In this document: piece by piece, positions 5,292 through 20,606 of the stretch
Position numbering within the stretch: position 1 is the stretch's first letter
Layout of the letters: each line of letters starts with the position of its first letter
Translations under genes and position numbers: made by a program
Notes under the pieces: model-generated
Told to the model about the DNA's origin: nothing
Database searches by the model: none
What the model saw: only the letters and a program-made list of their open reading frames with translations
DNA from: Thermotoga sp. SG1
GTDB taxonomy: Bacteria > Thermotogota > Thermotogae > Thermotogales > Thermotogaceae
Assembly (NCBI RefSeq): GCF_002865985.1
Contig: NZ_LNDD01000005.1
Span: forward strand, 248,001 to 312,000
DNA: 64,000 bases
Direction: 5' to 3'

Positions 5292-6182
5292 GTGAAGTAT
5301 AGAAAAATAGAAGTTTGTTTCTGGCAGGACACAGATATGCTTGAACTCACACCGGAGGGTAAGTACTTTTACCTGTATCTTCTTACCAACCCACATACAA
5401 ATTTAGCAGGTATTTACGAAGCAAGCAAGAAGGTAATGGCTTTTGAAACAGGATTTAATGTTGACACAGTGGATAAACTCATAAGGACGTTTGAGGGCAA
5501 GGGGAAAATAGCTTACGATCCAGAAACTTCCGAAATACTTGTTATCAACTGGTTGAAATACAACTGGACGAGTTCTCCAAAGGTTATAAAATGCATAATA
5601 CAGGATCTTGAACGTGTGAAATCAAAAAAGCTTCTATCCATTTTCTGGAACAAAACATCCGAAGATATCAAAAGGGTATTGATAGAGTATGGATACTCTA
5701 TAGATACCCTATCCATACCATATCCCTACCTAGACCTATACCTAGACCAAGACCTAACACAAAACCAATACCAAAATATAGAGTATGGATACTCTATGGA
5801 TACTGTATCCATACCATATCACTCCAAGGATCAAGATCAAGCCCAAACACAAACACAAATTGAAACTTTGCAATTTTCACAATTTTCCCAATTTGAAAAA
5901 AGCATTTTAAAGAGAGCAAATGAAATAAAAGAAAATCTCAGTAAAGGTTTTAATACTGAAGTTTTTGAATTCCTAGAAGAACCAGCGCTGGACGTACTTG
6001 AGGCTGTAAATACACTACTGGAAGAACTGGGGCAACAACCCGTAGAAAAACTGACAAACGGGGAACTCCTCGAACTAGCAGAAGCAATAAAGATAAACAG
6101 AACAAATCCAACATATTTTGTGAAAATTCTCAACACAAATCAGGGACTGACATTTAAAAAATGCGTGAGGGGCTCCAGTTGA
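5292..6182 (+). CDS. Replication initiator / replisome organizer-like protein (DnaD-type N-terminus)
   Basis: 296 residues from GTG 5292, chosen because GGAGGTG lies 6 bp before it; a longer frame begins at 5283. Residues 1-110 resemble the winged-helix N-terminal domain of phage replisome organizers (opening with KIEVCFWQDTD and containing GKYFYLYLLTNPHTNLAGIY). The centre (about 130-200) is low complexity, rich in Asp, Gln, Tyr and Pro, and is encoded by two copies of a 43-bp repeat. The C-terminal part is helical. Such proteins bind an origin inside their own gene and recruit helicase loader and helicase. No helicase or loader gene lies nearby, so host DnaB would be used. Family assignment is by pattern and moderate. 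Confidence 0.65.
   Translation: MKYRKIEVCFWQDTDMLELTPEGKYFYLYLLTNPHTNLAGIYEASKKVMAFETGFNVDTVDKLIRTFEGKGKIAYDPETSEILVINWLKYNWTSSPKVIKCIIQDLERVKSKKLLSIFWNKTSEDIKRVLIEYGYSIDTLSIPYPYLDLYLDQDLTQNQYQNIEYGYSMDTVSIPYHSKDQDQAQTQTQIETLQFSQFSQFEKSILKRANEIKENLSKGFNTEVFEFLEEPALDVLEAVNTLLEELGQQPVEKLTNGELLELAEAIKINRTNPTYFVKILNTNQGLTFKKCVRGSS
5682..5820. repeat. Two 43-bp iteron-like repeats inside the initiator gene (candidate origin)
   Basis: Copies at 5682-5724 and 5778-5820 match at 40 of 43 positions, 96 bp apart start to start (a multiple of 3, so both read in the same protein frame). Each copy contains the palindrome GAGTATGGATACTC and, further on, an inverted copy of the same core (TATCCATACC), giving four related binding-type sites. 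Between the copies lies a pyrimidine-skewed stretch with CCTAGACC twice. Origins embedded in the initiator gene are known for lambda O-type systems. Confidence 0.6.
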
Positions 6183-6196
6183 GCCCCTTTTCTTTT
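6169..6196 (+). terminator. Rho-independent terminator of the rightward early operon
   Basis: Stem GGGGCTC/GAGCCCC, 5-nt loop, then TTTTCTTTT. It overlaps the stop codon of the initiator gene, in the same style as the hairpin at the end of recT. Confidence 0.8.
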
Positions 6197-6328
6197 CACC
6201 GACCCCTTATGAGCTTTCCACGGTGGTACTGTTGGACCCTGCTATGTATGAGAAACGGTAGGGCGGGACGGTGACTGAGGCACAGGGGGTGGTGGGGAAC
6301 ACCCCGCGATTATCTCAAGCTGATATTT
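6197..6328. other. GC-rich segment without a credible gene
   Basis: About 130 bp with G-rich runs (for example CAGGGGGTGGTGGGGAACACCCC) between the early-operon terminator and a recombinase-like fragment. No frame with a ribosome binding site is visible on either strand. The composition stands out from the AT-richer genes to its left. It could be part of a structured RNA, an attachment region or a gene remnant; nothing in the sequence decides this. Confidence 0.3.
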
Positions 6329-6511
6329 TCAAAGCTTTTGTTTTTGAATCAATCCCTTTTCTGCGCAAAACTCCCTCCATCTACTCGTGGCCGCTTTGAA
6401 CCTGTCTGTGTTCAATTTTTTCCCTTCCAGGTACTTCTTTACTTCCCTTACGTATTCACTTGCCGTTGAGTATGTTTTCCCTTCCTTTACAAGATACCTG
6501 AAAAACTCCAC
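6329..6511 (-). pseudogene. Fragment resembling the N-terminal core-binding domain of a tyrosine recombinase
   Basis: The 60 residues after a possible GTG at 6511 (VEFFRYLVKEGKTYSTASEY, then VREVKKYLEGKK) resemble the SAM-like core-binding domain of XerC/XerD-type integrases. The catalytic domain with the Arg-His-Arg-Tyr residues is absent. There is no ribosome binding site before the GTG, and the open frame upstream runs through the GC-rich hairpins, where the translation looks non-natural. It is therefore more likely a truncated relic than a functional gene. Confidence 0.35.
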
Positions 6512-6530
6512 AAAAACAGACGAGCGAGGT

Positions 6531-6638
6531 CGCCCGCCGATGAGCAGTTTCGAAGAATCTGCGAAATGGCGGGCGGGCGAGCAGACAGCGTGCCGAGGCG
6601 ATGGAGAACGTTTGAAAAATGTTCGGAAATGCCTCGGC
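6531..6638. ncRNA. Candidate structured RNA: two tandem covarying hairpins
   Basis: Hairpin A spans 6531-6575 and hairpin B 6592-6638, offset by 61 bp. Both have an 8-bp outer stem (CGCCCGCC/GGCGGGCG versus GCCGAGGC/GCCTCGGC), a purine-rich internal loop (GATGA/GAAAT versus GATGGA/GGAAAT), a 4-bp inner stem (GCAG/CTGC versus GAAC/GTTC) and an 11-nt apical part with GAA at its tip that can close by three further pairs. Stems differ in sequence but keep pairing, while loops are conserved: the signature of RNA structure selection. The strand of expression is unknown. It lies just past the stop of the DUF457 gene. Confidence 0.5.
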
Positions 6639-6650
6639 GTGCTGGTACCA

Positions 6651-7985
6651 CTACTTTTCCCTAATGACAACCCTTTTTCCATCAACACGGATCACCTCCC
6701 CATCTCCCATAGCCGTGACGTCTTCAAGTGATAAAAGCTCATTGTACAGTTCCTCAAGCTGTCTGGATAATTCCTTTCTATCTCCGCTGTACTTTTCAAC
6801 ATCTACGGTTTTCAAGTCTGGATAGGTGAATTTCATCTCCTTTTCGACCTTCTCTATTTTCATCTTTGTTATCTCTCTCTGCCTCTTCTTTGATATGATC
6901 ACTTCTCCCCTCTTCACTTGGTCACCCACCTTGACAAGAGGCATTCCCCCACCTGTTTCGTACACCCTCACGCAAGAGAACTTTTCAGGTTGGAAAGGTT
7001 CTGTCGTTCTCACTGCAACCTTCCCGTGTAAGAACACTACATCATCAGGAAAGTCCTCCGGCTTTGCCCACAATATCTGAATGTTCTCTGATCCCTTTAT
7101 CGTGTCGTAGAAGACAAGAGGATCTTTCTCCGTGTACGGATCAAGAAGCTCACCAGTTCCAACAAGACGCCCAGGGAGTGTGAGAATGTCTTTTTTTGTG
7201 TACCCTGTGAGGTCTACCACCACGCTGTGCCATCTCACGGGTTCATATCTTGAAACGTACACCTTCACAGGATATATCTTTTCCGATTTTCTTCCAACAG
7301 AGTAAAGGTTTCCTTCCTCGTCTTGTACAAGAAGGGTGTTTTCGTCGAGCCTTGCCACCACCTCGTACTCTCCCAGCACCTTTCCCTGTGTGTGCTGGAA
7401 GTATCCTTCTATGTGCAGGAAGACCCTGTTATTTCCTGCCAGTTTGTTGTAGTCTGCAACAGCGGAGCTCATGTTTTTGAATGTCTTATGTAATGTTCTT
7501 TCTATCGATACCGCATTCAAACGAAGAGCAGGAAGAAACAAAGAAGCAAGAACGCCAAGAAGTACAAACTCCTTCCACGAGCCTGTTCTTACCCTGTAGT
7601 CGTCGTTTCCTGGCATAACACAGATGTAGTTGGCCGGATAGAAAAGGGGAACACCACTTATCGTTATCATGTCTGCAAGAAGGTGCCCCACATACCCAAT
7701 CCACAAGGCAAGTGCCATCCTGAAAGAAAACGGAAGAAGAGCAAAAAAGAAGATTGAGGAAAAAAGAAGAGAGTGCGTAACTCCCCTGTGCCCTATCTTT
7801 TTTTCAAGAACGGTGCTTATTGGGAAAAGAACCCTTCCAATAAAACTCTTTGTTGTGTCTATGTCAGGAAGAAGAGAGCCAAGGGAACACAGAGAAAGCT
7901 CAACAGGGGAAACCTTAGCCCCTGCAAGTGTCATGGTCGAAAGATAAAGAACGTTTGAGAAAACAACGTGTGTCGCCACTGTCAC
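6651..7985 (-). CDS. DUF457/YdjM-like membrane metal-dependent hydrolase with C-terminal extension
   Basis: 444 residues; GTG start overlaps the stop of the upstream ATPase gene (GTGA). Residues 1-150 match the YdjM/DUF457 family of membrane-bound putative metal hydrolases: LPDIDTTKS, GHRGVTHSL, and GHLLADMITISG supply the Asp and His residues, within several hydrophobic segments. The remaining 290 residues are unusual for the family: a strand-rich region with short beta motifs (GYFQHTQGKVLGEY, VKVGDQVKRGEVI) reminiscent of biotinyl-lipoyl/HlyD-type barrel-sandwich folds, then a helical charged stretch and a final strand GDGEVIRVDGKRVVI. It is the last gene of a seven-gene operon. A role in envelope assembly is inferred from neighbours only. 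Confidence 0.7.
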   Translation of the reverse strand: MTVATHVVFSNVLYLSTMTLAGAKVSPVELSLCSLGSLLPDIDTTKSFIGRVLFPISTVLEKKIGHRGVTHSLLFSSIFFFALLPFSFRMALALWIGYVGHLLADMITISGVPLFYPANYICVMPGNDDYRVRTGSWKEFVLLGVLASLFLPALRLNAVSIERTLHKTFKNMSSAVADYNKLAGNNRVFLHIEGYFQHTQGKVLGEYEVVARLDENTLLVQDEEGNLYSVGRKSEKIYPVKVYVSRYEPVRWHSVVVDLTGYTKKDILTLPGRLVGTGELLDPYTEKDPLVFYDTIKGSENIQILWAKPEDFPDDVVFLHGKVAVRTTEPFQPEKFSCVRVYETGGGMPLVKVGDQVKRGEVIISKKRQREITKMKIEKVEKEMKFTYPDLKTVDVEKYSGDRKELSRQLEELYNELLSLEDVTAMGDGEVIRVDGKRVVIREK

Positions 7986-8779
7986 TGTCTCATCCCTCTG
8001 TAGATGAAAAACCTCAGAAAACTCATAAGGCCATAGCCTATCCCCGCAAGGACGTAAACGTCTGTGTCGTTTGTCCCAAGTGCGATGAACCTTGCTATCA
8101 CAACAACGGAGACAAGGGCAAGAAGAATGAAAGTCATGTTGAGCTTCCGTGCAGGAGGGGAGTCTTTGAGGGCTTCTGGATTTTTCGCAAGGGACACGGC
8201 AACACCGGGAAGACCTCCACTTTTTGCTATGATTTGCCTTTCAACCGAGTCAGGAAGGTTGTACTCACGAAGAAGGGCACGTATTTCGTAATGTGGAACG
8301 GGTTCAAGCCTTATTGTTGTGCTTCTGTAGAGGAATTTCAAAACTTGCTTGGGCTTGGTGAAGGAAAAGCACACAGGGAAAGATTCCATGAGGCTTTCCA
8401 AGACTGCCTTTCCTCTTTGGCTTTCAAGATCTACATCATCAACGAAAAGGGGGATATCCCATTCCTCTTCGATTAACATGGAAAGAAGGATCTCAACTGG
8501 AACACTTCTGAATCTCTTTTCTATTTCTGAGTCATCGAGGTATCTTGCCTCTCTGAAATCAAGTCCATCGATAGAAGCAAGTCCTTTTCGGATAAGTTCT
8601 GCTGTGATCCTGACCAGAGATCTCTTTATGGGAGTAATCCTCTCTATGTAAATCCCACCTGTCTGGTGTGCAAGCTCCTTCAGAAAGTGTGTTTTCCCTG
8701 AAAGCTTCTCTCCCCTTACTGCGATGTGCTTTCTTCCACTGAGAAGTTCAAGAGCTCTTCTTTTCTGATCTTCTCGCAT
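7982..8779 (-). CDS. P-loop ATPase with two C-terminal membrane spans
   Basis: 265 residues. Walker A is GEKLSGKT at 23-30 and a Walker B-like strand LFVDDVD is at 111-117, so nucleotide binding is likely. Sequence after the ATPase core (GGLPGVAVSL) resembles AAA+/STAND-type sensor regions. Two hydrophobic helices at about 214-233 and 240-259 anchor the protein in the membrane with the ATPase in the cytoplasm. The start ATG follows GGGAGGG. It overlaps the TolC-like gene by 64 bp and the DUF457 gene by 4 bp. Partner and substrate unknown. Confidence 0.65.
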   Translation of the reverse strand: MREDQKRRALELLSGRKHIAVRGEKLSGKTHFLKELAHQTGGIYIERITPIKRSLVRITAELIRKGLASIDGLDFREARYLDDSEIEKRFRSVPVEILLSMLIEEEWDIPLFVDDVDLESQRGKAVLESLMESFPVCFSFTKPKQVLKFLYRSTTIRLEPVPHYEIRALLREYNLPDSVERQIIAKSGGLPGVAVSLAKNPEALKDSPPARKLNMTFILLALVSVVVIARFIALGTNDTDVYVLAGIGYGLMSFLRFFIYRGMRQ

Positions 8780-9339
8780 TCTGCCTCCCTCCCCATCTTG
8801 AGAAGTATTTCGTACCGTTTCTGTATCTCGTTCAACTGCACTGCCTTTAGGTTGATCTTTGCCGTGGAGTAGGAAGAGTAAGCGTTAATGAGGGATTCTG
8901 GGGAAATGAGTCCTGCTTCGTACTTGGCTTTTGAAATACTGAGGATATCTTCTGCTACGTCCATGGCTTGTTTTCTCTGCTCGATAGCCTGTACAAGAGA
9001 GAGCCACTCTGTGTAGTCGTTTATTGCTTCTATTTCTATCTCCTTTTTTCTTTCTTCGAGTTTCTTTTTCAGTATGTCTACGTCTGAAACACCTGAAATC
9101 TGCTGTGTTATGTATTTTCCGATGGAGAAGGAAATTCCGAAATCGTTCTTGATAGGATTGTATGATAGTGAGATATCGAAATCGCTCTGGGCGAGTTTGA
9201 GTTGTGAGGTGAGCTCTGCCAGTGTGTAATCGTTATTTTCGTACTCTCTTATCATCTCATCCAGGGTGAACGGTAGAACATCTTCAGCCAACACCAGTAC
9301 AGCCGTGAAACATAGGAGAAAAAAGCTAACAAGCCTCAT
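8716..9339 (-). CDS. Short TolC-like exported coiled-coil protein
   Basis: 207 residues from ATG 9339 after GGAGGTG (TTG 9342 is less likely). A signal peptide (MRLVSFFLLCFTAVLVLAE) is followed by helical segments resembling one half of an outer membrane efflux (TolC/OEP) repeat: LAELTSQLKLAQSDFDISLS early and AKYEAGLISPESLINAYSSY in the second helix pair, a typical OEP motif. A full TolC protomer has two such repeats in roughly 430 residues, so this is about half-length and may oligomerise as a periplasmic tunnel or adaptor. It overlaps genes on both sides, indicating strict cotranslation. Confidence 0.6.
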   Translation of the reverse strand: MRLVSFFLLCFTAVLVLAEDVLPFTLDEMIREYENNDYTLAELTSQLKLAQSDFDISLSYNPIKNDFGISFSIGKYITQQISGVSDVDILKKKLEERKKEIEIEAINDYTEWLSLVQAIEQRKQAMDVAEDILSISKAKYEAGLISPESLINAYSSYSTAKINLKAVQLNEIQKRYEILLKMGREAECEKIRKEELLNFSVEESTSQ

Positions 9340-10378
9340 CAACCCACCTCCTTACCTTCAAAATCCTGAAATCTTCCTCAACATCGTCTATAAACACCGC
9401 ATCGCCTGGATCTCTGAGCTTTCTCATGTACACTCCCATGTCTCCTTTCATGAACGTTGGCGTGAGCGACCTGAGGGCTTTTATATCTTCAACGAGCGTT
9501 AATTTATGCGCTATTAAAAAATCAACCTGGGATAGAACACCGCTTGATATGGCAGAAGGTTGCTGGCTTGCAAGTATGGCACCGATCCCAGGAAGCCTTC
9601 CTTCTTTTGCGAGCCTGACAAGGGAGTTCTTCTCTGATGCTCTTGATGGAGCATAATCCTGAGCCTCGTCTATAACCATGTAGATGTGTTTTTCCCTTCT
9701 TTCTTTCATTCTGTCCACCAAAAGAACATCACAGAGCGTCCACACAACAAGTTGACGCAGTTCGTACCGAAGAAGGGAAAGGTCAAGAACCTTGTACCCT
9801 TCAAAAAGAAACGAGATCTCGGAGGGATACTCTTGGAATATCCCCCAATCTTGTGCCGACAGAAGCCTGTTTATTAACGCCCTCTTCGTCGTGTCTGAAG
9901 AAGTCTCGTCGATTTCAACACGCTCTATGAGGTCTCTTATTGTGTAAAAGCTACGCTTGAGATCGTTTATCGCCCTTGTGAGAAGAATCCCTTGGGGAGA
10001 ATTCGAAGACAGGTCGAACACGAAAAGAAGAGACTCGCCGACGAGTGTGAGGGGAAGTTTCAAGTCCTCTGGTGCCTTTATCGCTTCTCCTTCTGTGTAT
10101 ATCTTCATCACTCCCATTGTGTCTATTACAAGAACATCAGAGAACCTTGAAAGCTGATCAGATATCACGCCAAGGGTGAAACTCTTTCCCATGCCACGTT
10201 TCCCACATACAAAGCCGATTCTGGGAGATTTGAATTTCAGAAAAACTTTTTCTTCGTTCACAACATCGACGCCAAGACGCACCTTTAATGTTTCATCCCC
10301 GAAAGTTTTCCCTTCTTTTCTCGAAAGGTTCCCGCTTGAAAGAAAAGAGGGGGAGGCCCCCTCTGTTTTTCTGATCAA
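9326..10378 (-). CDS. HerA/VirB4-like hexameric P-loop ATPase (DUF87 type)
   Basis: 350 residues from TTG 10378, selected because the upstream stop forms GCGAGGTGA six bases before it. Walker A GKRGMGKS lies at about 59-66 and Walker B with adjoining residues MVIDEAQDY at 234-242; QQP (sensor-like) follows at about 270. This is the organisation of HerA/FtsK-superfamily pumps, but no HAS-barrel is visible at the N-terminus beyond a short strand region. HerA-like enzymes translocate DNA or, in secretion systems (VirB4), power substrate transfer. Its neighbours are envelope proteins rather than NurA or Mre11, which points to an export-type rather than a repair role; this is inference. Confidence 0.7.
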   Translation of the reverse strand: MIRKTEGASPSFLSSGNLSRKEGKTFGDETLKVRLGVDVVNEEKVFLKFKSPRIGFVCGKRGMGKSFTLGVISDQLSRFSDVLVIDTMGVMKIYTEGEAIKAPEDLKLPLTLVGESLLFVFDLSSNSPQGILLTRAINDLKRSFYTIRDLIERVEIDETSSDTTKRALINRLLSAQDWGIFQEYPSEISFLFEGYKVLDLSLLRYELRQLVVWTLCDVLLVDRMKERREKHIYMVIDEAQDYAPSRASEKNSLVRLAKEGRLPGIGAILASQQPSAISSGVLSQVDFLIAHKLTLVEDIKALRSLTPTFMKGDMGVYMRKLRDPGDAVFIDDVEEDFRILKVRRWVDEAC

Positions 10379-10383
10379 ACGGA

Positions 10384-11370
10384 TCACCTCGCCTGTAAGA
10401 CGAAGTCGAAGGTGTAAGTATTGTTCTCCACGCCGTCGAAGTTGAGGCTGGATGTTATGTATCCCTGTGCTGATGCCCTTATGGTGAGGTCTCCTGCCGG
10501 AAGGCCAGACAGAGTATAATTTCCGTTTGCGTCCGTTGTGGTGCTTCCCATCATGTATCTCCCCGCGTAAACAGCGACGATTGCCCCTTCTATGGGGTTA
10601 CCCTGTGCGTCCTTCACGGTTCCCTGTAAAGCAACATTCTGGTCAATCCAAGGTGTTCTTATGTCCTCAACGATCGTGCTGAGTAGATCGTTTTTGTAAT
10701 ATATCCCGTCTGTCGGATTACCACTGGCACCATACAAAGCCATGAGTTCGTATGGAACAAAACCGGGTTCTTTCACGATGAGCCTGTAGCGGTAGCTCAA
10801 AGACCCCGCCATCCATACATCGGCGTTTTCGAACAGGTTGTAATCTCCTCTGACAAGCCTTATCGAATCGTAGGGGAATGTGCCAACGAAAACAGAGCTC
10901 ATGCTTTTCTTTGGAAGGCCGTCTTCACGTGTGGAAAAGCGGGGAACATAGAAGTATACATCAACCATCGTGCCAGGTGTTATGGAAAAGTTTGCGTAGT
11001 CTGAAAGGGAAATGGTCTCGTATGTTCCGGCGGGGATCGTTATCGTGACTGTTTTGGACCTGTTTACCTGTATGTCTCTTTCCCACACGAGGGTTTGAAC
11101 GTCTCCTTCGTACACTTTGACATTGATTGTGGTATTTTCAGGGATACAGGTGAGTGTGAACCTTCCATCTTTTGTGAATGTGTAGGTATTACTTCCTATG
11201 ACTATCGTGTATGTAGAAGGATCACCGAGTGGGAACACCTGAAGCTTTAACGTGAGAGTTTTTCCTGGAGAGCTCGTGTAATTGTCCGTGACAGGGTAGC
11301 TGAAAGCAAGTGCCATCACAACACCCAACACCACAAGAGCCACCACGAGAACCTTCCTCAACCTTTCCAT
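10384..11370 (-). CDS. Exported protein with C-terminal CarboxypepD_reg-like domain
   Basis: 328 residues. N-terminal signal anchor (KVLVVALVVLGVVMALAF), then a strand-rich middle. Residues from about 248 on form a carboxypeptidase regulatory-like domain: GTVKDAQGNPIEGAIVAVYA followed by TTDANGNYTLSGLPAGDLTI and SAQGY, a beta-sandwich frequent in surface and TonB-linked proteins. The start ATG follows GAGGAGGTGG. It lies 12 bp after the barrel gene and ends inside the ribosome binding site of the HerA-like gene. Likely periplasmic or surface structural component. Confidence 0.65.
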   Translation of the reverse strand: MERLRKVLVVALVVLGVVMALAFSYPVTDNYTSSPGKTLTLKLQVFPLGDPSTYTIVIGSNTYTFTKDGRFTLTCIPENTTINVKVYEGDVQTLVWERDIQVNRSKTVTITIPAGTYETISLSDYANFSITPGTMVDVYFYVPRFSTREDGLPKKSMSSVFVGTFPYDSIRLVRGDYNLFENADVWMAGSLSYRYRLIVKEPGFVPYELMALYGASGNPTDGIYYKNDLLSTIVEDIRTPWIDQNVALQGTVKDAQGNPIEGAIVAVYAGRYMMGSTTTDANGNYTLSGLPAGDLTIRASAQGYITSSLNFDGVENNTYTFDFVLQAR

Positions 11371-13027: not shown

Positions 13028-14005
13028 ATGATATGGTATATATTATTTTCTGTTTTGGTTAGCTTGGCATCTGGCCTAATATCAAGAAATTTGGAGGAGA
13101 TTCTTTTTTTTATTTCGAACTTGCTCATCAAACTTTTCCCAACCTCCCAAGGTACAAACAAGTTCTTTTTTGAAAAATCTCTTCAAAAAGCAATGAAAGA
13201 AATTAGGAAAGAAGCTTTTGTTGGAACTTACAATAAGGTCAAGATTGAGGTTATAAATGGTGCCGAACCAGATTTGGATGTTATAAACGACACTTTGATT
13301 CTACGTATTCCTCAGCAAAACAAACCTTCTGAAAATGTCAAAAAAATTCTAAAAACATACTGTAAAGATCTTCTTTTGGGAAGAGTTCAAGATTATTTGG
13401 AAGAAGTTCAGAAAGACAGTGTCATCGATTTTTCTTCAAGGGAGCTGAGCAAAACGGTGAAGATACAAAAAGTGGTGGATGATTTGGAAAATGAAATAGT
13501 ACGTAAAGAAAACAAAAATCCAACGTACAGGGAATATATCAATAAGTATTATCAGATCAGAAAAAGTGGTTTATTTTTCACTATATTTTTACCTGAGATT
13601 AGATCTTTGGGAAACATCATTACTTATGAGACCGTGAACCACGTTTCAGACGAATATGAAAATTTACTGAAATTCCTCTACGAAATAGCAACCAAAGAAC
13701 GTGGAGAAGAAGTTCGTCTACAGTTTTTAGGAAAAATATCTAGAGTAGCTGTGATACTAGTAGCTCGTGAGACAACATGGGAAATGTATGGAACACATGC
13801 TTATTTGAAACGAGCAAAAGAATTAATAGAAAAAAAAGGTTTCGAAACGATTTACATAATTGCAGCAGGAGACAAGGTAAATCTAGCTAGCAAGGTAACA
13901 AGAGAACTAAAACGCATTCTACCGCTCAAAAGTCATCCAAAGAAGGATATCAAAATAGGAGCAAATAAACTGATAAGGATTTATAAATTGGATGTTGACT
14001 TATAA
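13028..14005 (+). CDS. Membrane-anchored protein of unknown function
   Basis: 325 residues. The N-terminus has one or two hydrophobic helices (residues 3-22 and about 27-38), then a soluble, Lys/Glu-rich cytoplasmic part. The C-terminal region alternates strands and helices (RVAVILVARETTW, FETIYIIAAGDKVNLASKV), hinting at an alpha/beta fold, but I recognise no catalytic motif. The gene abuts the zinc-ribbon gene without a gap and shows the AT-rich composition of that pair. A two-gene defence or envelope-sensing unit is possible but unproven. Confidence 0.55.
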   Translation: MIWYILFSVLVSLASGLISRNLEEILFFISNLLIKLFPTSQGTNKFFFEKSLQKAMKEIRKEAFVGTYNKVKIEVINGAEPDLDVINDTLILRIPQQNKPSENVKKILKTYCKDLLLGRVQDYLEEVQKDSVIDFSSRELSKTVKIQKVVDDLENEIVRKENKNPTYREYINKYYQIRKSGLFFTIFLPEIRSLGNIITYETVNHVSDEYENLLKFLYEIATKERGEEVRLQFLGKISRVAVILVARETTWEMYGTHAYLKRAKELIEKKGFETIYIIAAGDKVNLASKVTRELKRILPLKSHPKKDIKIGANKLIRIYKLDVDL

Positions 14006-17126: not shown

Positions 17127-18536
17127 GTGAAAAAAGTCGCCATTTACGCGAGGGTATCAACGGAGCATCAGACGAGTTCGTCACTGGAGACACAGATCAA
17201 AGCATGTAAAGAGTACTGTGCACGTCATGGGTGGATTGTTGCAGACGTATATCAAGAAAGGGATTCTGGAGGTAAGGTGGAACGGCAGGAGTTTCAGAAG
17301 ATGATCGCAAAAGCACTAAACGGAGCATACGACGTGATAGTTGTAGAAAAGTTCGACAGGTTCTTTCGAGACGACATTGAGGACAGAAGATACACGAGGA
17401 TGCTCGAAGAAAAAGGCGTTCTCGTTGTCTCTGCCCTCGAGGGAATAGACACCACATCCGCTTCAGGAAAGCTATTACGCTGGATTCTCTCTGATATTAA
17501 TTGGTTTCAACGCGAATATATGAAAGAAGAACAAATGAGAAAGACAAAGGAAGCAGCAAGGCAGGGGTATTGGCTTGGTGGAATACCGCCCCTAGGGTAC
17601 AAAGTGGTTGAGGTGAGAGATGGCGAAAGAAAAAGGAAGAAACTGGAGATCGATCCAGAAACGGTTCCTGTGGTGCAACGTATCTTCGAGCTGTTTGCTG
17701 ACGGGTATTCCTACAGAAGCATTGTGAAGATCATGAACAAGGAGTTTCCCTTTCGACAATGGAAAGAGTCGACAATCTACGACATCGTTCACAATCCCAA
17801 GTACCTAGGCATCTATACATGGAACGTACCCCGGCGAAAACTTGTAAAAACAGAAGCGGGAGTCGTGGCAGAAGGAGTTATTCCACCGATTATCACAGGA
17901 CAACTTGCCGAAAAAGTAAAAGAGCGACTTTCAAGGAAAAAAGCATCTATATACGTGAAGAAACACACGTGGCTTCTGAGTGGTGTCATCTATTGTGGTT
18001 TGTGCGGAAATCGCATGGAGGGTTGTTCTCATCCACGAGTGCCCACGTACAGATGCAGACATGGAGAGCACGAAGAGAGCGTTCAAATCTCAAAACAATA
18101 TGTAGAAACCTATGTGATCACGTACATCAAACGCTTTCTTGACGGACTCGATATAGAAGAGGTCTATCGGCATTTTGTTGAGTATTACAGCATCCAATTG
18201 CTTGCAAACGAAGAAGCACAGAGACATTTCAGGGAACAACTTGAGGAGATAGAACGGAAGGAAAAAAGACTGGTAGAGGCTATTATGGCGGGAATAGATC
18301 TTGAAACGTTGAGGGAAGAGGCAGAAAGGTTGAAGAAGGAAAAGGAAGAAATACAAAAAAAGATACAAGAAGCAAGCAAGCCGCCTTCGTTTGAAGAAGT
18401 AAAAAGGCTGTACGAATCACTGAAAGTAAAACTTAACAACACAGCAGACGAGGAACTCTTGCGAAATGTTATCAAGCAACTGGTGAAAGAAGTAAAAGTG
18501 TTTCCAGGTCGTGTTGTTTTCGTGGATTTGCGATGA
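17127..18536 (+). CDS. Large serine recombinase (integrase)
   Basis: 469 residues, GTG start after AAGGGGTGAT. Order of domains: resolvase catalytic domain 1-150 with the nucleophile Ser in YARVSTEHQ and conserved Arg residues (KFDRFFRD); recombinase domain about 160-270 (GGIPPLGYK, NPKYLGIYTWN); zinc beta-ribbon about 285-325 (CGLCGNRMEGC plus RCRHGEH); then a long Glu/Lys coiled coil about 350-425. This is the layout of phage and ICE integrases that join attP and attB without host factors. It is at the right edge of the accessory region, transcribed toward the core genes, the usual position next to an attachment site. No director gene is evident. Confidence 0.92.
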   Translation: MKKVAIYARVSTEHQTSSSLETQIKACKEYCARHGWIVADVYQERDSGGKVERQEFQKMIAKALNGAYDVIVVEKFDRFFRDDIEDRRYTRMLEEKGVLVVSALEGIDTTSASGKLLRWILSDINWFQREYMKEEQMRKTKEAARQGYWLGGIPPLGYKVVEVRDGERKRKKLEIDPETVPVVQRIFELFADGYSYRSIVKIMNKEFPFRQWKESTIYDIVHNPKYLGIYTWNVPRRKLVKTEAGVVAEGVIPPIITGQLAEKVKERLSRKKASIYVKKHTWLLSGVIYCGLCGNRMEGCSHPRVPTYRCRHGEHEESVQISKQYVETYVITYIKRFLDGLDIEEVYRHFVEYYSIQLLANEEAQRHFREQLEEIERKEKRLVEAIMAGIDLETLREEAERLKKEKEEIQKKIQEASKPPSFEEVKRLYESLKVKLNNTADEELLRNVIKQLVKEVKVFPGRVVFVDLR

Positions 18537-18605
18537 TACCAAAAACCGTACATCAGTGGCGTCCCCGTGGGGCTACCAGGACTACAACAGACCTCTGACA
18601 TGCTT

Positions 18606-19832: not shown

Positions 19833-20606
19833 GTGGTGGAACTCACCGGGCCAGGAACAGTGGATTTTTTCTGGAACAATACACCGTTGTCCATGGAGTT
19901 GAATCTTTGGAACGTAGAAAGGTACAGGGGAACAGTATCGTTGAAGTTCGACGGAGAAAAGCTCACCTTCAATGGTGATATTGAGAATCTTTCTGCCAGA
20001 GAACCGGAAAGATACGTTCTCGGTTATCCTGAGTTTTACTACGGATACAAACCCTGGGAAAAACACATGGCAGAGGGAACAAAACTCCCGGTACCTGTGT
20101 TTTCTATTAAATCGTTTTCTGTAGGCCTTTCCTTTGAGATAGATCATAAATCTCATCTTCCATTGAACTTTGCCATGGAGACTTGGCTCACAAGAAAGAA
20201 ATACCAGACGGAAGCTTCTATCGGAGATGTAGAGATCATGGTGTGGTTCTATTTTAACGAACTCACACCAGGTGGAAAGAAAGTAGGAGAATACACCATT
20301 TCGTTCGAGTTGAACGGTGAGAAAACCCGCTGCAGCTGGGAGCTCTGGCATGCAGAATGGAACTGGGATTATCTTGCTTTTCGGCTTAAAGATCCTGTGA
20401 GAAAAGGAAGAGTAAGATTCGACGTGAGAGATTTCCTCGACATTGCATGGGAGTATCTTTCAAGGTTCACCCGCGTGAAAAATTTTGATGAGCTGTATTT
20501 CACCGTCTGGGAGGTCGGTACCGAGTTTGGAAGTCCAGAAACAGAGAGTGCCAGGTTCGAATGGGTGTTCAAAGACTTTTCAATCGATATGGAGGTGAGA
20601 GAATGA
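19833..20606 (+). CDS. cel12A: Endo-beta-1,4-glucanase, glycoside hydrolase family 12, no signal peptide
   Basis: 257 residues from GTG 19833, set by GGAGGTG six bases upstream; this equals the length of T. maritima Cel12A (TM1524) as I remember it. It hydrolyses internal beta-1,4 bonds in soluble glucans. GH12 residues visible include the two catalytic Glu in EIMVWFY (nucleophile) and in VWEVGTEFGSPE (acid/base), plus aromatic substrate-groove residues in YPEFYYGYKPW. No signal peptide, so it is presumably cytoplasmic or exported unconventionally. The stop overlaps the start of cel12B (ATGA), so the pair is cotranslated. Confidence 0.93.
   Translation: MVELTGPGTVDFFWNNTPLSMELNLWNVERYRGTVSLKFDGEKLTFNGDIENLSAREPERYVLGYPEFYYGYKPWEKHMAEGTKLPVPVFSIKSFSVGLSFEIDHKSHLPLNFAMETWLTRKKYQTEASIGDVEIMVWFYFNELTPGGKKVGEYTISFELNGEKTRCSWELWHAEWNWDYLAFRLKDPVRKGRVRFDVRDFLDIAWEYLSRFTRVKNFDELYFTVWEVGTEFGSPETESARFEWVFKDFSIDMEVRE

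Follow-up and report, generated by a model that had tools for sequence, protein, structure and literature searches.

Two adjacent hairpins with kept loops and changed stems in a tRNA-sited island of Thermotoga sp. SG1

In a 64,000-nucleotide stretch of the genome of Thermotoga sp. SG1 (the window), we found that two adjacent hairpins have kept their loops while their stems have changed, and that the fold is preferred on the + strand. Selection on a single-strand fold is thus well supported. We tentatively favour the reading that the hairpins are a duplicated, strand-specific fold-back element of a mobile island, which would act in cis as a recognition site when the + strand is single.

Results

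The preliminary description of this DNA had placed two hairpins at this site, and both folds were found there. The extent of hairpin 2 had to be enlarged, as its outer stem really spans 6586-6644 (+) and contains 14 bp including two G-U pairs, while hairpin 1 (6530-6576, +) gained one U-G pair (6530/6576), which brings its outer stem to 9 bp. The linker between them covers 6577-6585 (+). Both are built alike: a GC-rich outer stem leads through a symmetric, purine-rich internal loop to a short inner stem, which is capped by a GAA apical loop. Inside hairpin 1 these are the internal loop GATGA/GAAAT, the inner stem GCAG/CTGC and the apical TTC-GAA-GAA; inside hairpin 2 they are GATGGA/GGAAAT, with one extra G per side, GAAC/GTTC and TTT-GAA-AAA. 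The stem ends read TCGCCC/GGGCGG and CAGC/GCTG. The high GC content of the stems had been taken to fit an RNA of a hyperthermophile, but it is not specific evidence for RNA.

We compared loops and stems after removing the extra G on each side of the hairpin 2 loop. With these set aside, 14 of the 15 unpaired positions were identical between the hairpins, as were 14 of the 30 paired positions. Eight of the 15 stem pairs (five outer, three inner or apical) had changed on both sides yet still paired. Thus, each of the three stem segments does differ while pairing is kept, as first claimed, but seven pairs are unchanged. A covariance model built from hairpin 1 alone recovered hairpin 2 in the 64 kb window (E 8e-4), and a model built from hairpin 2 alone recovered hairpin 1 (E 6e-5). 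Adjacent hairpins with like internal loops were also sought in 1.88 Mb of strand-bases, made up of the window, viral contigs, nearby regions of the same genome and regions of three congeneric genomes; the scan detected only this pair, which shows on either strand, and a single plain tandem-repeat array. A hairpin pair with shared loops is more than chance. Two copies at one place cannot show independent or repeated compensatory events. The original argument from covariation to a function as RNA or single-strand-folded DNA holds as far as a selected single-strand fold is concerned.

The + strand gave the stronger fold, both as RNA (-64.4 versus -49.4 kcal/mol) and as DNA (-36.6 versus -29.2), with z-scores of -6.4 for the + strand and -5.8 for the - strand. 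Where the stems are imperfect, the + strand has G-U and the - strand has A-C, and every wobble pair favours +. Because the loops are kept while the stems change, the two models find each other's hairpin and the + strand folds better, we consider the feature to be real and strand-specific.

The - strand also folds well, and the hairpins begin about 7 nt beyond the stop codon (6651) of an operon encoded on that strand. They could therefore form the 3' end of the operon mRNA, as a terminator or as a barrier to exonucleases, with the shared loops incidental to duplication. An alternative, terminator-like stem with TGTTTTTG at 6538-6519 is consistent with this. However, neither hairpin is directly followed by a T-run on the minus strand, the terminator stem must break the stronger hairpin 1, the wobble pairs all favour the opposite strand, and a terminator would not require the loops to be kept. 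We regard a role at the mRNA 3' end as unlikely. As intrinsic terminators the hairpins were rejected, this alternative minus-strand stem, which competes with hairpin 1, being the only one reported.

Model searches of the own genome returned the two hairpins and nothing further, and those of 102 other genomes of the phylum, including a permissive run over 39, gave no credible further copy. A weak match in genome G005 (L294) was rejected, as it was an AT-rich palindrome that lacked the GATGA loop; a 19-mer in it resembles the hairpin 2 inner stem, but no more than chance would roughly predict for that search space. Phage and plasmid collections held no credible DNA similarity to the hairpins. 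Loop patterns filtered for stems, in viral and genome contigs, gave chance matches only among the matches listed. In Rfam, at gathering and relaxed thresholds, only a tRNA elsewhere was found, and sub-threshold matches at the hairpins were at chance level. The covariance-model search of phylum genomes, which had been suggested as a check of a new structured RNA, thus yielded no copies outside the hairpins' own island. Since no further copy was found, a new RNA family would have to be based on the two copies at this one site. It had been held that a lack of other copies in any genome would speak against the proposal; such a lack is what we see within the searches made, but relatives would be expected to be without the hairpins, which are confined to a mobile island.

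Several known classes were considered. The hammerhead ribozyme is a three-way junction with a CUGANGA...GAAA core and an NUH cleavage site. The GATGA...GAAA of the hairpins resembles part of this core. The outer stem closes directly, however, which leaves no third stem, and there was no Rfam match; we rejected this candidate. Integron attC, REP and IS200/IS605-like sites are typically hairpins with kept mismatches and variable stems, as seen here, and REP and IS200/IS605 hairpins occur in many copies or as paired ends together with a TnpA/RAYT gene. A 64-aa open stretch that resembles the N-terminal (SAM-like) part of a tyrosine recombinase adjoins hairpin 1 (6332-6523, -). It could thus be asked whether the hairpins are ends for single-strand recombination or transposition, left as a remnant near a truncated tyrosine recombinase. 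The stem ends are without the AAC/GTT-type R boxes of attC sites, however, the genome holds just two copies, both direct and adjacent, and no TnpA/RAYT gene was recognised by Pfam among the neighbouring genes tested. The recombinase assignment is itself weak. We rejected membership in the attC and REP or IS200/IS605 classes, and recombination ends of any such kind seem improbable.

An island of about 18.9 kb, inserted in tRNA-Glu, harbours the hairpins; the tRNA-Glu gene is just left of the window. An 18-bp repeat of the tRNA-Glu 3' end marks the right border (18562-18579, +), its left copy lies just outside the window (about -302 to -285), and a large serine recombinase (17127-18536, +) adjoins the right attachment repeat. 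This tRNA-Glu is an integration hot spot (window -285 to 18579), and the relative G002 carries a different island of about 9 kb there. To the left of the hairpins are a restriction-modification pair, a phage-type repressor, RecT and a replisome organizer. The gene for the last of these contains, at 5682-5859, two 82-nt repeats of palindromic TATGGATACTCTAT-type units, which are likely the origin iterons of a phage-type replicon. The gene is followed by an intrinsic-terminator-like site (6167-6189, +), upstream of the hairpins on the same strand. A non-coding block of about 100 nt (6222-6325) is conserved, with 76% identity over the core, in L002 of one genus genome (about 1465-1564, -); the copy in L002 is directly behind an RNase H/RnlA-like gene and its small partner gene.

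This arrangement bears on the possibility that the hairpins belong to a + strand noncoding RNA, either a small RNA or a regulatory leader or trailer, in which both hairpins would bind protein. One model for such an RNA would be the put-type antitermination RNAs of phages; those of phage HK022 consist of two adjacent hairpins with an internal purine-rich bulge. The tandem arrangement, the conserved loops, the G-U pairs, the strong + strand fold and the possible sheared G-A type loops all point in this direction. Conversely, a crude scan of 6100-6740 showed no + strand promoter, the terminator-like site lies upstream, there was no Rfam match and no other copy, and the next long + strand gene begins only at 13028. 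The put sites of HK022 lead early operons, whereas no long + strand gene follows the window hairpins for over 6 kb. We therefore hold a noncoding RNA to be doubtful. Of the 'candidate new structured RNA' first described, the selected single-strand fold is retained, but the lack of a + strand promoter and of an Rfam match, together with the upstream terminator-like site, argues against the RNA part. Folded single-stranded DNA is in our view just as likely as RNA.

On the right, a convergent operon (6651-10387, -) runs toward the hairpins. It begins with a HerA/DUF87-like ATPase (9326-10387, -), the best NCBIfam relatives of which are HerA and the Ced DNA-transport ATPases, all far below the cut-off. 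This is followed by a TolC-family (OEP) outer membrane protein (8716-9342, -), an AAA_16-like ATPase with C-terminal hydrophobic segments (7982-8779, -) and, as the last gene, a YdjM-type membrane protein (6651-7985, -) with its stop codon about 7 nt from hairpin 2. In the Thermus homologues of the YdjM-type protein, the C-terminal part is HlyD-like. Among the island genes tested, none was recognised as coding for a relaxase or HUH protein, and no relatives of the YdjM protein were found in viral contigs.

Ten Thermus plasmids of 19-25 kb carry one operon homologous to that of the window, TolC included. Identity to the Thermus plasmid proteins is about 30% for the YdjM protein and about 25% for the AAA ATPase. 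The homologue of 7982-8779 is annotated on the plasmids as 'ATP-binding protein'; Pfam assigns it to AAA_16, which rules out that it is a HerA, and HerA is therefore extra in the window. The Thermus YdjM protein has a terminal part with weak HlyD/membrane-fusion matches, and in one plasmid this part is a separate gene. Together with TolC, the HlyD-like part suggests an envelope-spanning exporter. Judging by these gene assignments, the operon at 6651-10387 is a candidate envelope-spanning export system, perhaps for DNA, which the window and the Thermus plasmids share. The ATP-binding protein and YdjM are also paired on cyanobacterial and gammaproteobacterial plasmids.

All ten of the Thermus plasmids with the AAA/TolC/YdjM operon, including pL4C, pAA1-1c and pTCCB09, have a 136-nt rod hairpin, which was in no other of 72,556 plasmid records at the sensitivity used. 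In L277 it lies at 19931-20074 (-), shortly upstream of a small, oppositely oriented gene, and it has the same place in L276, L278, L281, L282, L283 and L288-L291. The stems of the rod covary, with six pairs changed on both sides (a value reached by three of 500 shuffles), and its internal GGA/GGA loops are almost invariant. For six rods both strands were folded, and each time the one opposite to the operon was the more stable. Rfam gave no match at the rod in the three plasmids scanned. The rod is an undescribed conserved covarying element of ten plasmids, absent from Rfam. The rods sit at least 0.8 kb from the operon with other genes between, and five other YdjM plasmids showed no comparable rod within about 8 kb of the gene. 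The Thermus plasmids also carry ACTTACAGACT-type repeat arrays with large palindromes (L277 14363-14533, L278 12581-12734 and L282 17543-17688) between the ParA-side HTH gene and the AAA/TolC/YdjM operon. These arrays are probably centromere or operator sites.

Discussion

We propose a model in which the hairpins are a signal of the element that is read on single-stranded DNA or on a short transcript. Three sets of observations support a signal site: the kept loops (14/15) and changed pairs (8/15) with models that find each other and a stronger + fold; the recombinase and tRNA repeat of the island, with an operon homologous to that of Thermus plasmids; and the rod, in the same strand relation, on 10/10 operon-bearing Thermus plasmids. 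Conversely, the reading is weakened because the hairpins do not match the rods, the rods lie farther from the operon, five other YdjM plasmids are without a comparable rod within about 8 kb, none of the island genes tested was recognised as a relaxase or HUH protein gene and the hairpins are a single instance in the phylum.

Tandem sheared G-A and GNA-loop motifs are very stable in single-stranded DNA and RNA alike. On the + strand, tandem sheared G-A pairs are possible in both internal loops, with a G inserted on either side in the case of hairpin 2, and the apical loops could be of the GNA type. We propose that these purine-rich loops, with their tandem G-A pairs and GAA apical loops, are the putative contact points of a protein of the element. 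The + strand may act as DNA that has been displaced or transferred, or else in the form of a short transcript. The site would come into use when excision, replication or export of the element leaves the + strand single, and it may mark the DNA of the element itself to be processed, replicated or exported.

Tandem or rod-like hairpins with kept mismatches serve as single-stranded DNA signals in the packaging signal and minus-strand origins of filamentous phages and in the single-strand origins of rolling-circle plasmids. These systems differ from the island, where no rolling-circle initiator, coat gene or single-stranded DNA genome was recognised. The Thermus rod is closer. Like the window hairpins it has short GC-rich stems and symmetric purine-rich internal loops, with loops kept while stems covary. 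Both fold more strongly opposite the strand of an AAA/TolC/YdjM-HlyD operon and share a mobile-element context, the window hairpins also being linked to such an operon of their element. The rod, however, is one 136-nt structure and the window has two hairpins, and the distance to the operon differs (at least 0.8 kb versus 7 nt). Models of the window hairpins run on the Thermus plasmids gave no sequence or covariance-model match. Because there is no sequence homology between the hairpin types, we can only infer the link, and we consider the parallel to be suggestive. To go further and unite both as forms of a single kind of signal in single-stranded DNA, recognised by its G-A internal loops and routing element DNA to an AAA/HerA-HlyD-TolC exporter, would be a long shot.

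The signal-site reading is also supported because tRNA-sited, DNA-exporting elements with a translocase of the FtsK/HerA family exist in Thermus, according to the portions available of PMC5365140 and PMC7767461. In Thermus thermophilus, these portions describe ICETh1/TdtA, in which DNA is exported by a tRNA-sited element with an FtsK/HerA-family ATPase and a restriction enzyme. ICETh1 and the window island are alike in their tRNA gene location, restriction enzyme and FtsK/HerA-family ATPase, whereas ICETh1 has NurA and a type IIG enzyme, unlike the island. Neither TolC nor a hairpin is mentioned in the portion of PMC7767461, nor TolC in that of PMC5365140.

In thermophiles, some mobile elements spread although they lack the customary genes for a relaxase and type IV secretion, and for the most part little is known of the sites on which their machines act. 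A concrete candidate for a site of this kind, open to experiment, is the strand-specific hairpin that two distant lineages carry in linkage with an AAA/TolC/HlyD-like operon. If the long-shot reading of both hairpin types as one kind of signal is true, this would be a DNA secretion system without a relaxase or type IV secretion parts, together with its transfer origin. Whatever the window hairpins prove to be, the Thermus rod stands as a conserved, covarying, non-Rfam element.
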